64,000 nt of DNA from Actinomycetaceae bacterium (lineage in GTDB: Bacteria > Actinomycetota > Actinomycetes > Actinomycetales > Actinomycetaceae), in contig JAUNVG010000003.1 of the NCBI GenBank assembly GCA_030537735.1, positions 1 to 64,000 of the forward strand, written 5' to 3'. A program made the position numbers and the translations under genes. The notes under the pieces are model-generated. The model was not told the origin of the DNA. It worked only from the letters and a program-made list of their open reading frames with translations, and searched no databases. Positions 30,759 through 58,510 of the stretch are shown here, piece by piece (position 1 is the first letter of the stretch; each line of letters begins with the position of its first letter).

Positions 30759-30840
30759 GCACTCACCTTAACCCACCTGAGAAATCACCTTAAAGCGGTT
30801 GCACAAACTACCTCGCTCAACTTTGATGCACAATAAGAGT

Positions 30841-32391
30841 ATGAGTAACGAAAATGATCCCGAAGTTAATAAAGAAGTAGAGGCCAAGGGGCCGCAAAGC
30901 ATGAATGAACGCGGCGCCATGCGCTCGCGGCGTCCAGCCAGTGAAGCTTTCCGCAAATTTATCGGATCGAACTGGGGGCCACGCGACGACAGCGGTGTGC
31001 AGCGCAGTGAAGTGGCGGATTTCCTGCCCGCGCGACACCAAAAACTATCCCGAACCTTCCCCGCAGACCGACTGGTAATACCAGCAGGTGGCCTGAAAGT
31101 GCGCAATAACGACTGCGACTACCGCTTCCGCGCGCACTCGGCGTTCGTGCATATCAGCGGACTGGGCGGTGAGAAGGAACCTGACGCGGTACTGGTAGCT
31201 GAGCCGGTGGAAGAAGGCGGGCACGAAGTGGTTCTCTACTTCAAACCGCGCGCTTCACGTTCCTCCGAAGAGTTCTACGCAGATTCGCGTTACGGCGAAT
31301 TCTGGGTGGGGGCGCGCCCGTCCTTAGAGGAGATGGAAACCATGACGGGACTGCGCTGCGCCCATATCGACACGCTACCCGATGCGCTGGCTAAAGACGC
31401 CGGTCAAGTGCAGTTGCGAGTGGTGCGTGAAGCTGACAGCAACATCACCTCCATGGTGGACCAAGTACGTAAACAAGCCGGGCTGGTACACGGCGAGGAC
31501 GCTCGCCCCCTCGATGAGGAACTAACCCAGGAACTATCGGAAATGCGCCTGTGCAAAGACGCCTACGAACGCGACCAGATTGCACTGGCCGTTAACGTCA
31601 CCTACCAGGGGTTCGATGAGATTATCCGCTCCCTGCCGCGGGCCGTCGGCCACCGGCGTGGAGAGCGAGTGATTGAAGGAGCCTTCGGTGCCCGCGCCCG
31701 CGAAGAAGGAAACGGTTTAGGCTATGACACCATCGCTGCCTCCGGTAACCACGCCAACACCTTGCATTGGATCGACAACGATGGGCCGGTGCGTCCTGGT
31801 GATTTAGTGCTGGTGGACGCGGGGGTGGAGGTTGACTCCCTCTACACCGCTGACATCACCCGCACGCTGCCGGTGGATGGGAAGTTCACCGAGGTCCAAG
31901 CCCAGGTTTATAACGCGGTGTTGGATGCTTGTGAAGCCGCTTTGGAAGCAGCTAACAAACCCGGATGCATATTCCGCGAAATCCACGAGGCCGCCATGGA
32001 AGTTATCGCCCAACGCCTGGAAGAGTGGGGGGTGTTGCCGGTGCCCGCCAGTGAGGCGCTTTCAGCCAGTGGCCAGCAGCACCGCCGGTGGATGCCGCAC
32101 GGCACCAGTCACCACCTGGGTCTGGATGTGCACGACTGTGCCCAAGCACGTCAAGAAATGTATTTAGATGCGAAACTGGAACCGGGCATGGTGTTCACCA
32201 TTGAACCGGGCTTGTACTTCCGCGCCGATGACCTGGCAGTGCCTGAGCACCTGCGCGGTATCGGGGTACGCATCGAAGATGACATTATCGTCAACGATGA
32301 TGGTTCAGTTACCCGCATCTCCGAAGACATCCCCCGCACGGTGGAGGATGTAGAAGCGTGGATCGCGCGCGTGCAGGCAGAGGGTAAGTAG
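30841..32391 (+). CDS. pepP: Xaa-Pro aminopeptidase (M24 family)
   Basis: The 516-residue cytoplasmic metallopeptidase removes N-terminal residues preceding proline. The aminopeptidase P N-terminal domain (PRSxASEAF..., LVIPAGGLKVRNNDCDYRFR) precedes the pita-bread catalytic domain. All metal-ligand motifs are visible: VDAGVEVDSLYTADITRT, HGTSHHLGLDVHD, VFTIEPGLYF and GVRIEDDI. The start is uncertain. I chose ATG 30841; TTG 30799, ATG 30826 and ATG 30901 are in frame. It is divergent from the PHP gene. Confidence 0.88.
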   Translation: MSNENDPEVNKEVEAKGPQSMNERGAMRSRRPASEAFRKFIGSNWGPRDDSGVQRSEVADFLPARHQKLSRTFPADRLVIPAGGLKVRNNDCDYRFRAHSAFVHISGLGGEKEPDAVLVAEPVEEGGHEVVLYFKPRASRSSEEFYADSRYGEFWVGARPSLEEMETMTGLRCAHIDTLPDALAKDAGQVQLRVVREADSNITSMVDQVRKQAGLVHGEDARPLDEELTQELSEMRLCKDAYERDQIALAVNVTYQGFDEIIRSLPRAVGHRRGERVIEGAFGARAREEGNGLGYDTIAASGNHANTLHWIDNDGPVRPGDLVLVDAGVEVDSLYTADITRTLPVDGKFTEVQAQVYNAVLDACEAALEAANKPGCIFREIHEAAMEVIAQRLEEWGVLPVPASEALSASGQQHRRWMPHGTSHHLGLDVHDCAQARQEMYLDAKLEPGMVFTIEPGLYFRADDLAVPEHLRGIGVRIEDDIIVNDDGSVTRISEDIPRTVEDVEAWIARVQAEGK

Positions 32392-32460
32392 AAGCAAACC
32401 CCTCCGAGTCGCTACCGCACTTAACGTGCAGTGGTTGGAGGAACGGGAAGCGAAACGGTG

Positions 32461-32490
32461 GCGGGGTGAGAATCTAGGTTCTCACCCCGC
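32461..32490 (+). terminator. Strong hairpin terminator after pepP
   Basis: A perfect 12-bp stem (GCGGGGTGAGAA / TTCTCACCCCGC) with a 6-base loop lies 70 bases downstream of the pepP stop and just past the end of the convergent small repeat-peptide gene. It could serve both directions. There is no clear U tract. Confidence 0.65.
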
Positions 32491-32563
32491 CGCGCACTAA
32501 ATATTCAGTTCGTTACCGCAGTTTTCCGCGAGCGAGCGCTCACGTAAAGTTTTCCTCCGCGGG

Positions 32564-32722
32564 CTATTCATGGGTCGAAGGAGCGGCGTTATTCATGCTG
32601 CCGGTGCCTTCGCCCTCGGGATGGGTAGCTGCGGCCGCATCGTTCATATTGTGGTTGCAGTTGCAGTCTTCATGAGTGGAGGCGTCAGCGTCGTTCATGG
32701 AGTGGTGTTTAGGTTCAGTCAT
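32564..32722 (-). CDS. 52-residue repeat peptide coupled to the stress-protein gene
   Basis: The ATG at 32722 overlaps the stop of the upstream stress-protein gene by one base (TAATG), and that gene's last codons supply AAGGAAG as ribosome site. The 52-residue product is three imperfect repeats with an exact 17-residue period: MNDADASTHE (9), MNDAAAATHPE (26) and MNNAAPSTHE (43). CNCNHN lies between the first two. It is polar, rich in Asn, His, Asp, Thr and Glu with two Cys, and has no signal or TM segment. I do not recognise a family. His and Cys spacing would suit metal binding (inference). Overlap and repeat structure make it very likely translated. Confidence 0.65.
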   Translation of the reverse strand: MTEPKHHSMNDADASTHEDCNCNHNMNDAAAATHPEGEGTGSMNNAAPSTHE

Positions 32723-33435
32723 TATTCTTCCTTCCGCATTTCTTTGGACTCTTCCAGTACATCACCCTTCTTCGGGTTTGTCCTGCGCAGGTTTCCTTCA
32801 TCCGCTTCAGGTGACGGAGCTTGAGCTGCTTGTGCGCGTTCGTCCTCGCTCAGGCGCACTCCGAATCGGGGTTCTTCGTCGGGGCGGGAGCCGAAGGCGG
32901 TGGGGCCAGGTTTGGCTTGGCGTTGCGCACGTGCCTGCTCCATGGCGGTGAGGTTTCCCGCGCTGTTAGCCAGCATGGTACGAAACTTGCCGGCTTCACT
33001 GGTGGCGACTATGGCATAACGGGAGGCGACGACTCGGGTGGAGGAAGTGTAGTCGGGGCGTTTGCGGCTGAAGAAGTAGGGAACCAGGTGTAGTACGATC
33101 CCGAAGGCTGCCCCCATGCCGAGCCCCATGAGGAAGATTGAGGGTGAGGGCGATGGTAGCCACAGTAGTAGGAATAAGGCGATGAAACTGCCCGTCCACA
33201 TCCCCGACAGGGCACCCGATAGTAGGACTCTTCCCAGGGTCAGTCGCCCGGTGATGCGTTCGACCAGTCGCAGGTCGGTGCCTACGATGGTGAGCGCGGA
33301 GACGTCGAGGTTGTCCTCCGATAGTTTGCTAACCGCTTCCCGGGCTTGCTGGTAGGTGCGGTAGGAAGCTACTTCGGTGCCGTTAACGCCGGCGGAGAAG
33401 GAGGCATCGAGGGGGCCGTGCATAGTCGCGTTCAT
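32722..33435 (-). CDS. General stress protein (17M-like domain) with two TM helices
   Basis: The 237-residue protein begins with the GSP17M/YflT-like domain (VASYRTYQQAREAVSKLSED, LDVSALTIVGTDLRLVERITGR). Two adjacent TM helices follow (LLSGALSGMWTGSFIALFLLLW and FLMGLGMGAAFGIVLHLVPY), then a domain with RVVASRYAIVATSEAGKFR and a charged, disordered tail. The family is associated with stress response but its mechanism is unknown. It is the first gene of a two-gene unit with the repeat peptide and is divergent from the MgtE-like gene. Confidence 0.78.
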   Translation of the reverse strand: MNATMHGPLDASFSAGVNGTEVASYRTYQQAREAVSKLSEDNLDVSALTIVGTDLRLVERITGRLTLGRVLLSGALSGMWTGSFIALFLLLWLPSPSPSIFLMGLGMGAAFGIVLHLVPYFFSRKRPDYTSSTRVVASRYAIVATSEAGKFRTMLANSAGNLTAMEQARAQRQAKPGPTAFGSRPDEEPRFGVRLSEDERAQAAQAPSPEADEGNLRRTNPKKGDVLEESKEMRKEE

Positions 33436-33589: not shown

Positions 33590-34894
33590 GTGACTACCCC
33601 AGCTAAATCTGTACGTACCATGGGTACCCGTGTTTTCGTTGCTCGCCTGGCGGGCACTGACGTTTTCGACCCCATTGGCGACAAGGTGGGCCGCGTCCAC
33701 GACGTGGTTTCTATCCTGCCGATCACGGGGCGCGCCCAGGTGGTGGGCCTGGTGGTGGAGGTGTCCTCCCGCCGCCGCGTTTTCGTACCGTTTTCGCGGG
33801 TAACCGCGATTGAACCGGGAGCAGTCATCACCACCGGCTTGTTGAATATGCGTCGTTTCAACCAGCGCCCGGTGGAGACCTTGATTGTGTCGCAGTTGTT
33901 TGACCGCGTGGTCACCATGCGTGACGGTAGTGGTGAAGTGCGGATTAAAGATGTGGCGATTGAGCGGGTAATGCCGCGCGAGTGGCGCCTGACGCAACTG
34001 TTTGTGGAACGAGTGCGTAAGTCCACGTTGGGTATTAAACGCTCCGGTGAGACCGCGGTGGTGGGGGTAAATGAGGTTTCCTCCCTGGTGGCACAAACCG
34101 GGGTGCAGGACGCTACCAGTTTGATTGCGGCCACCGAGGACTTGAAACCGGCTGACTTAGCGGATTTGTTGAATGATTTACCCAGCGTGCGCCGGCAGGA
34201 AGTGGCGGCGCAGTTAGATGATGAACGTTTAGCTGACGTGCTGGAGGAGCTGCCGGAGGATGATTCGGTGGAGATCCTCACGGGTTTGGACGTTAAACGC
34301 GCCGCCGACGTGCTGGACGTGATGCAGCCTGACGATGCGGCGGACTTGATTGCGCAGATGTCTCCCGCGGCGGCAGCAAACCTGCTGGCTTTAATGGAGC
34401 CGGAAGAAGCAGCTGACGTGCGCCGGTTGATGCGCTATGAAGAACGCACCGCGGGTGGTTTGATGACTACTGAGCCGGTGATTTTGCCTCCAGATGCCAC
34501 CGTGGCCCAGCTACTGGCTTCGGTGCGCCGTGAGGATATTCCCCCGGCTTTAGCGGCGCTGGTGATGATTGTGCGCCCGCCGCTGGAGGTTCCCACCGGC
34601 CGTTACATTGGGGTGGTCCATATTCAAAAGGCGTTGCGTGAACCGCCCCAGACTTTGCTTGGCACCATTGTTGACACCGATGTGGAGGCGGTTGCTGGGG
34701 ACGCTTCCATCGGCACCCTGACCCGTATCTTAGCTACTTATAACTTAACGGCGCTGCCGGTGGTGGATGAGGACGCTCACCTGTTGGGAGCAGTGTCAGT
34801 GGACGATGTTTTAGATAATTTGCTGCCTGATGACTGGCGTGAGCAAGACGACGATGTGACGGATGCGGAGATGGAGGAACGCTACGATGGCTGA
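33590..34894 (+). CDS. Soluble MgtE-N/CBS domain protein
   Basis: The 434-residue protein has a PRC-barrel-like N-terminal part (FDPIGDKVGRVHDVV), then an MgtE intracellular helical N domain with repeated LxxLxDDxxADVLEELPEDD segments, then two CBS repeats (GLMTTEPVILPPDATV and DTDVEAVAGDAS...LPVVDEDAHLLGAVSVDDVLD). It has no TM segment, so it is a cytosolic Mg2+ or nucleotide sensor rather than a channel. This arrangement is widespread in actinobacteria next to a DUF1003 protein and mrp. The start is GTG 33590; ATG 33620 is an alternative. Confidence 0.83.
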   Translation: MTTPAKSVRTMGTRVFVARLAGTDVFDPIGDKVGRVHDVVSILPITGRAQVVGLVVEVSSRRRVFVPFSRVTAIEPGAVITTGLLNMRRFNQRPVETLIVSQLFDRVVTMRDGSGEVRIKDVAIERVMPREWRLTQLFVERVRKSTLGIKRSGETAVVGVNEVSSLVAQTGVQDATSLIAATEDLKPADLADLLNDLPSVRRQEVAAQLDDERLADVLEELPEDDSVEILTGLDVKRAADVLDVMQPDDAADLIAQMSPAAAANLLALMEPEEAADVRRLMRYEERTAGGLMTTEPVILPPDATVAQLLASVRREDIPPALAALVMIVRPPLEVPTGRYIGVVHIQKALREPPQTLLGTIVDTDVEAVAGDASIGTLTRILATYNLTALPVVDEDAHLLGAVSVDDVLDNLLPDDWREQDDDVTDAEMEERYDG

Positions 34895-56513: not shown

Positions 56514-57737
56514 CTAGAGAAGGTCCGTGCGGCCCGAATCACGCAAGATCGCGGGGAGTTTACCAACGCTTTGCGCAGCTTGTGTGCTGGTGATGACAAT
56601 CCCATCTGGGGTTTGCACCACGATGCAGTCATCAACACCCACCACCGAAATGTGAGCTGGCTCCCATCCGGGTTTTTCTTCTCTCCCACCGACGTAGGCA
56701 CTAACGTTTTGCGCCTCTACAACCGTGACATCAGCGTGGAAGGGGTGTTGGTATTTTTCCAGGGCCGTTAGATCCCCCACGTCAGCCCACCCGGCGTTGG
56801 CAGGCAGCGGCACAACCAGTACCCTGCCAGCCTCAGCTTCAGGTTCAGCCAGCGCATAGTCAATAGCAATGGAAGGTAGCTGCGACCACCTAACTTCCCG
56901 GGAAGTGTCATCCATTTGTAGCCAACTGGCTGCCAATTCCGTTAAGTCCGCCGCCAATGCTGGCAGGTGAGTTCGCAAAGCCCGGTGCAAGTAACCGGCA
57001 GTGGCTACGAAAATTCCGGCATTCCACAAATACCCCTGCTGCACGAATCCAGTGGCAGTCGCGGCATCGGGTTTTTCCACGAACGCATCCACCGCCGTCG
57101 CACCTGCGGCGGCGGTAGAAGCACCGCAGAAGTCGGAATCGACCATGGCGGCGGTATCGACACGGCTGAAGTCGGAGTCGACCTTGGCGGCGGTATCGTG
57201 GTCGTTGCTAGCGTCGTCGACCGCGGGTGAAGCGGGCTTAATGTAGCCAAATCCGGTGGCCGCATAGGTCGGCTCCACTCCCAAGGTCACCAGGTGCTCA
57301 CCGGTGCCGGCCGCTTGCATCGCGACTTGTACGCAGCCGCGCAACACGTCCTCGTCGGCGAAAGTGTGATCCGCCGCGAAGGAGGCTACCAGCGCGTCAT
57401 CACCGCAACGCGCGCGAATACGTTCGGCCGCTAGAGCGATTGCGGGCATGGAGTTACGACCGCACGGCTCCACCAGGATCTCTAAAGTGGTGTCTTCGCC
57501 CGCTATCGCATCCCTGGCGTGCTCGCCCACGGCCTGCGCGTGGTGGGCACCGGTGACGATCGTTATGGAGTCACAAAGGGGGCTAAGGCGCGCCACCGTT
57601 TGGGTCAGCATGGAGCGATCGGGGTGGGTTAAGGGAAGTAAAAACTTCGGGTGATCGGCGCGCGAGAGCGGCCACAGACGGGTGCCCGCACCCCCGGCAG
57701 GAATAATGGCATGAAGATTTTTCCCCATCTGAACCAC
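56514..57737 (-). CDS. manC: Mannose-1-phosphate guanylyltransferase
   Basis: The 407-residue nucleotidyltransferase makes GDP-mannose. Motifs are the GTP loop IIPAGGAGTRLWPLSR, HPKFLLPLT, LVEPCGRNSMPAIALAA, AADHTFAD, VDAFVEKPD, LWNAGIFVA and IDYALAEP. A 40-residue insert at about 170-210 just before VDAFVEKPD holds a 13-residue tandem repeat (see the repeat at 57129-57198) that interrupts the normal fold. GDP-mannose feeds glycolipids and surface glycans. It follows rplY on the same strand, separated by the rplY terminator. Confidence 0.85.
   Translation of the reverse strand: MVQMGKNLHAIIPAGGAGTRLWPLSRADHPKFLLPLTHPDRSMLTQTVARLSPLCDSITIVTGAHHAQAVGEHARDAIAGEDTTLEILVEPCGRNSMPAIALAAERIRARCGDDALVASFAADHTFADEDVLRGCVQVAMQAAGTGEHLVTLGVEPTYAATGFGYIKPASPAVDDASNDHDTAAKVDSDFSRVDTAAMVDSDFCGASTAAAGATAVDAFVEKPDAATATGFVQQGYLWNAGIFVATAGYLHRALRTHLPALAADLTELAASWLQMDDTSREVRWSQLPSIAIDYALAEPEAEAGRVLVVPLPANAGWADVGDLTALEKYQHPFHADVTVVEAQNVSAYVGGREEKPGWEPAHISVVGVDDCIVVQTPDGIVITSTQAAQSVGKLPAILRDSGRTDLL
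57129..57198 (-). repeat. In-frame 39-bp tandem repeat inside manC
   Basis: Two near-identical units (57129-57160 and 57168-57198), period 39 bases, encode DTAAKVDSDFSRV and DTAAMVDSDFCGA, followed by a partial third unit (STAA). As 39 is divisible by three, copy-number change would not break the frame. Confidence 0.75.
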
Positions 57738-57856: not shown

Positions 57857-58510
57857 TTACTCGGCAGCTTCGGCGCCTTCGCCCTCGCCTGCTTCACCAG
57901 CTTCAGCGGCTTCACCTTCGCCTGCTTCAGAGCCCTCAGCGTCCTCACCTTCAACCGGTTCGGGAATCTCTTCAGGAACCACCACGGAAGCCAAAACGGT
58001 CTCCGGATCCAGGTCGCAGGTGACGTCCTCAGGTAGGGACAGCTGCGCGATGGTAACAACGGTGCCTTCTTCGAGGCCCTCGATGGAAAGCTCGAGGTTT
58101 TCCGGAATCGCGATGGCCGGAGCGGAAACCAACACGGTGAAGCTTTCCTGGTTCACCACGGTGCCAGCAGCGGATTCTCCCACCAGAACCAGCGGTACTT
58201 CCACCTCAACCTTCTCCCCGCGCTTAACGGCAAGCAGGTCAACGTGCAAAATGTCGCGGCGAACCGGGTGACGCTGAATGTCTTTCACCAGGGCCAGCTG
58301 ATCTTCACCGTCAACCACCAGGGTCAACAGGGCGTTGGTGTTACCTTTAACAGCTAGGAACACTTCGTGTCCGGGCAGATCCAGGTGCATCGGCTCAATG
58401 TCAGCGGAGTAAACCACCGCCGGAACCAGGCCGGCGCGACGAGCGCGACGAGCTGCGCCCTTGCCGAACTCCTTACGGACAGAAGCAGCAATCTTAGTAA
58501 TATCTGGCAT
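57857..58510 (-). CDS. rplY: 50S ribosomal protein L25/general stress protein Ctc
   Basis: The 217-residue Ctc-type L25 binds 5S rRNA. It shows KEFGKGAARRARRAGLVPAVVY, DIQRHPVRRDILHVDLLAV and the C-terminal beta domain (VEVPLVLVGES, LPEDVTCDLDPETVLASVV). A 45-residue Glu/Gly/Ala-rich acidic tail follows, as in actinobacteria. It follows prs in the conserved glmU-prs-rplY order. The pth gene that usually comes next is not here. Confidence 0.92.
   Translation of the reverse strand: MPDITKIAASVRKEFGKGAARRARRAGLVPAVVYSADIEPMHLDLPGHEVFLAVKGNTNALLTLVVDGEDQLALVKDIQRHPVRRDILHVDLLAVKRGEKVEVEVPLVLVGESAAGTVVNQESFTVLVSAPAIAIPENLELSIEGLEEGTVVTIAQLSLPEDVTCDLDPETVLASVVVPEEIPEPVEGEDAEGSEAGEGEAAEAGEAGEGEGAEAAE

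Follow-up and report, generated by a model that had tools for sequence, protein, structure and literature searches.

A repeat-bearing 52-codon open reading frame overlapping a YflT-domain stress gene in an Actinomycetaceae bacterium, probably an orphan small gene

Position of the open reading frame and its start signals

In the genome of an Actinomycetaceae bacterium, a short open reading frame begins on the stop codon of a stress-protein gene. Is this frame a real gene and, if so, what sort of protein would it encode? We examined it within a window of 64,000 nucleotides, meaning the whole stretch of contig JAUNVG010000003.1 that was analysed (Table 1). Its translation is MTEPKHHSMNDADASTHEDCNCNHNMNDAAAATHPEGEGTGSMNNAAPSTHE, followed by a stop. 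The overlap described in the original prediction was found as described: the TAA of the stress gene and the ATG of the short frame have one A in common, giving TAATG, and the upstream product is a general stress protein of 237 amino acids with a heat-induced stress domain of the YflT type (PF11181).

The ATG is preceded by a Shine-Dalgarno-like motif, AAGGAAG, placed inside the 3' end of the stress gene. Such motifs are found at 49% of the ATG starts of long ORFs of this genome versus 7.5% of all its ATGs. The frame remains open for 13 codons 5' of its ATG, and a homology search found the peptide as a single copy in its own genome. Since ORFs of 52 codons are not rare per se, the case for a gene rests on the codons, the Shine-Dalgarno-like motif, the overlap and the repeat. 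Two other readings of the junction were discarded. An antisense ORF (32570-32824, plus strand) extends into the stress gene and is regarded as spurious, and fusion to the stress protein by programmed -1 frameshifting was rejected because no X XXY YYZ heptamer was seen by inspection in the 39 nucleotides before the stop. Rfam gave no match.

Table 1. Features of the peptide locus, in window coordinates
Feature	Coordinates	Strand	Description	Basis
Peptide ORF	32564..32722	minus	52 codons, 3 repeat units	ORF reading, repeat and codon analyses
Repeat unit 1	32698-32669	minus	MNDADASTHE, from residue 9	
Repeat unit 2	32647-32618	minus	MNDAAAATHP, from residue 26	
Repeat unit 3	32596-32567	minus	MNNAAPSTHE, from residue 43	
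Shine-Dalgarno-like motif	32727..32733	minus	AAGGAAG, inside stress-gene 3' end, 5' of peptide ATG	Motif reading
Stress gene (upstream)	32722..33435	minus	YflT-domain (PF11181) general stress protein, 237 aa	Profile match, E 1.1e-20
pepP (convergent neighbour)	30799..32391	plus	Aminopeptidase P (Peptidase_M24, AMP_N)	Profile match
Divergent neighbour	33590..34894	plus	PRC-barrel / MgtE_N / CBS protein	Profile match
Hairpin	32460..32491		Between peptide ORF and pepP; 13-bp perfect stem, loop of 6	

Repeats and constraint on the protein

The exact period of 17 residues that had been claimed for the peptide lies far above chance. Aligned with itself at a lag of 17, the peptide is identical at 14 of 35 positions, and at every other lag from 3 to 29 at no more than 6; none of 100,000 residue shuffles reached this identity at lag 17, and over all lags between 3 and 29 the rate was 5e-5. 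The MN(D/N)A...TH part of the proposed unit is present in all three copies, but its final glutamate is not, as unit 2 ends in THP. The ten-residue units are separated by linkers of seven residues each that are unrelated to one another (DCNCNHN and EGEGTGS), and the CNCNHN of the original prediction is indeed in the peptide.

The same prediction held that residues were kept between the units while codons differed, which would suggest selection on the protein. The codon contrast quoted for it (GACGCTGAC and GATGCGGCC) does occur but is not wholly synonymous: its third codon, GAC or GCC, alters Asp to Ala. Synonymous/non-synonymous analysis nevertheless bore out the claim. Over the ten aligned codons, the first, second and third positions vary between units in 4, 2 and 8 columns, respectively (one-sided Fisher P 0.013). 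By the uncorrected NG86 method pS is 0.87-1.0 per unit pair versus a pN of 0.13-0.24, figures drawn from 30 codons, in which each pair offers only about six synonymous sites, and from units that were chosen for residue agreement. When the same number of changes was placed at random, more amino-acid changes resulted in at least 99% of the trials (P 0.0016-0.008 per unit pair, the pairs not being independent). Because the units differ mostly at third codon positions, it is the protein that was kept. Tandem Repeats Finder did not detect the 51-nucleotide repeat at the DNA level, as expected if only the protein was kept. The constraint between the repeats thus acts on the protein and not on the DNA. 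Elsewhere in the window, tandem repeats of 39 nucleotides (57108-57198) and 33 nucleotides (57865-57952), both multiples of three, each lie inside a long listed ORF.

Codon usage and likelihood of translation

To build a codon model, about 139 kb of long ORFs was taken from this genome, of which about 197 kb was used. On this model the peptide ORF scores 0.103 per codon; the score is 0.170 (sd 0.103) for pieces of genes and -0.214 (sd 0.165) for pieces read in a wrong frame. A lower score than that of the peptide ORF is found in 26% of the gene pieces, and 2.4% of the wrong-frame pieces reach 0.103. Given its own amino acids, the ORF chooses among synonymous codons as genes do and unlike the background (P 0.007), a statistic that, like the others on codons, comes from 52 codons. 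Taken together, the gene-like codons, the Shine-Dalgarno-like AAGGAAG and the pattern of substitutions between repeats suggest that the ORF is probably translated.

These data bear on whether the ORF could be spurious, that is, an open frame in untranslated, repeat-bearing sequence of a 3' untranslated or intergenic region. Its absence from all relatives searched would fit such an origin, as would the variation among species of the gap 3' of the stress gene (see below), but the third-position bias, the gene-like codons, the Shine-Dalgarno-like motif and the precise overlap all point to coding, and we regard a spurious ORF as distinctly unlikely.

Distribution among relatives

No homologue of the peptide was found in 212 other genomes of the family (best E 0.024). 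A degenerate DNA pattern of the unit gave three matches in the 213 family genomes, all in this ORF and none in the 212 others; the reversed control pattern gave one match in the same 213 genomes. Neither the phylum sample nor GTDB r220, IMG/VR, phages or plasmids yielded a credible relative, and the peptide matched nothing in Pfam, NCBIfam or PDB. The only other match below 0.01 in the phylum (G317, L054) is an Arg-rich frame without Met/Asn repeats that reads like the wrong frame of a GC-rich gene. A CNCNRNCNR segment of L036 was also set aside as a relative, being a short Asn/Cys/Arg repeat. Repeats of this type occur twice in one open frame of L036, whose genome (G024) gives weak peptide matches at four places and may hold a short dispersed DNA repeat.

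The stress gene itself was present in 45 of 59 genomes, its own counted, where it often adjoins the MgtE_N/CBS gene and a convergent pepP. The original prediction named the lack of a homologous frame downstream of the same gene in relatives as counting against it. Every congener and family member examined lacks such a frame, so conservation was not borne out. The gap between the stops of the stress gene and pepP is 330 bp here versus 25-145 bp in six congeners, and in these six gaps there is neither the repeat motif nor a similar small ORF preceded by a Shine-Dalgarno-like sequence. The peptide is also absent from the other congeners examined, in which the gap is larger, pepP lies outside the fetched stretch or the contig ends. 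The gap 3' of the stress gene accordingly differs between species. As the closest YflT relative compared is only 56% identical, a homologue of the peptide in a nearer species is possible. The absence from relatives removes comparative proof and, as no second genome carries the peptide, confines the evidence of constraint to this one genome, but this absence alone does not show that the ORF is untranslated.

The 3' end of the YflT gene provides the main rival to a separate gene. The peptide could once have formed the C-terminal extension of the YflT protein and have no function of its own, an indel or stop in the gene, or a frameshift in sequencing or assembly, having separated the two. The YflT tails of relatives are long, hydrophilic, of low complexity and very variable, and some bear short tandem repeats of their own (QQFGQNAGDRQA twice in L009, SAGSEQ/SAGPEQ in L064); these independent repeats and the large differences in length indicate that the 3' end of the gene is hypervariable. 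The 13 open codons upstream of the peptide ATG would also fit a split. Against this, the stress protein already has an ordinary tail, of 47 residues from FGVRL on compared with 18-109 in congeners (from YGVRL on), no relative's tail resembles the peptide, and a good Shine-Dalgarno-like motif with an ATG exactly at the junction would not be expected from a chance split. We therefore consider a displaced tail rather unlikely.

Between the peptide ORF and pepP there is a perfect hairpin of 13 bp (GGCGGGGTGAGAA / TTCTCACCCCGCC), GC-rich and without a U tract. The 171 nucleotides around it fold better than 200 of 200 shuffles (z -3.9), and the hairpin is a possible transcript end for the peptide ORF, pepP or both.

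Composition and the metal question

Among its 52 residues the peptide has 6 His (11.5%), 7 Asn, 2 Cys and 4 Met. Compared with the genes of its own genome it is enriched in His (P 8e-4), His plus Cys (P 1e-4) and Asn (P 5e-4), the enrichment in Cys alone not being significant (P 0.06). AlphaFold2, run on the single sequence, gave no fold (pLDDT 48), which as weak evidence fits a product that is probably intrinsically disordered.

Metal or redox binding under stress had been proposed from the His/Cys/Asp pattern, which would fit a dedicated metal-binding stress peptide like a metallothionein or a His-rich metal store. As many His plus Cys are found in only 0.4% of 52-residue gene pieces, and CxCxH, HxE and the regular spacing of Met and His would also fit such a peptide. 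However, what recurs in the units is M, N, A, T and H, with one conserved His per unit; the two Cys lie in one linker and are not repeated, and Asn is as enriched as His. The peptide matched no family of metal proteins in the Pfam, NCBIfam and PDB searches, and no metal gene is adjacent except that of the MgtE_N/CBS protein. Bacterial metallothioneins and His-rich metal stores such as SmtA, MymT and Hpn-like proteins are likewise small, rich in potential metal ligands and probably disordered without metal. A bacterial metallothionein would be Cys-rich, with several CxC/CxxC motifs, and would match a profile; the peptide has two Cys only, 11.5% His, neither Cys clusters nor poly-His, and matches 0 Pfam or NCBIfam families. 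Composition makes metal binding possible and is likewise the basis on which redox binding would rest; a dedicated metal peptide is very unlikely.

A model for the locus

In the collections searched, the peptide has no detectable homologue outside its species or lineage, which makes it an orphan. The evidence within the gene favours a young gene despite the missing homologues. Like other bacterial ORFans it is short, lacks homologues even in its genus, has gene-like codons and lies in a variable intergenic stretch; it differs from them in that its internal repeat offers unusual within-gene evidence of protein-level constraint. On balance we favour a genuine lineage-restricted small gene whose product would be a translationally coupled, disordered accessory peptide of the YflT stress locus. 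Between the stress gene and pepP, such a gene would have originated or been acquired, and it would have expanded by duplication of the 17-residue unit, giving a soluble, intrinsically disordered peptide of 52 residues.

Translationally coupled pairs have been defined as co-directed genes with an overlap of -4 or -1 nt, the latter being the second commonest overlap in prokaryotes (PMC10666635). The stress gene and the peptide ORF are such a co-directed pair with a -1 nt overlap, and they share with TAATG pairs (PMC10666635) the exact geometry and the Shine-Dalgarno-like motif in the upstream gene. Ribosomes that terminate on the stress gene would reinitiate at TAATG on the same mRNA, assisted by AAGGAAG, so that the output of the peptide would be proportional to that of the membrane stress protein. 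The arrangement thus suits the predicted coupling, but unlike coupled pairs the peptide is not conserved with its upstream gene, and a stoichiometric complex cannot be inferred from conservation. In E. coli, subunits of complexes are over-represented among pairs spaced from -8 to +10 nt (30.4% vs 6.8%; PMC10666635), which at the population level speaks for a peptide that is accessory to the YflT protein. Its most likely role would be this one or, close to the membrane, that of a small peptide with a buffering or chaperoning function. A soft or borderline metal (Cu, Ni, Zn) could find ligands in the side chains of its His, Met, Cys and Asp. A more specific proposal, which we hold unlikely, is that of a new repeat protein of recent origin with a metal or a protein partner as its ligand, which is co-produced with the YflT protein and serves metal sensing or buffering in one lineage only.

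The peptide gene is thus unusual in detail and ordinary in kind, and probably a real orphan small gene. Its internal repeats make it a clean case for arguing constraint at the protein level when no relative is at hand, and its position would suit coupling to the stress gene. If it is translated, it would help to show how bacterial stress loci acquire new small proteins; if it is not, it would be a useful caution on repeats in open frames.
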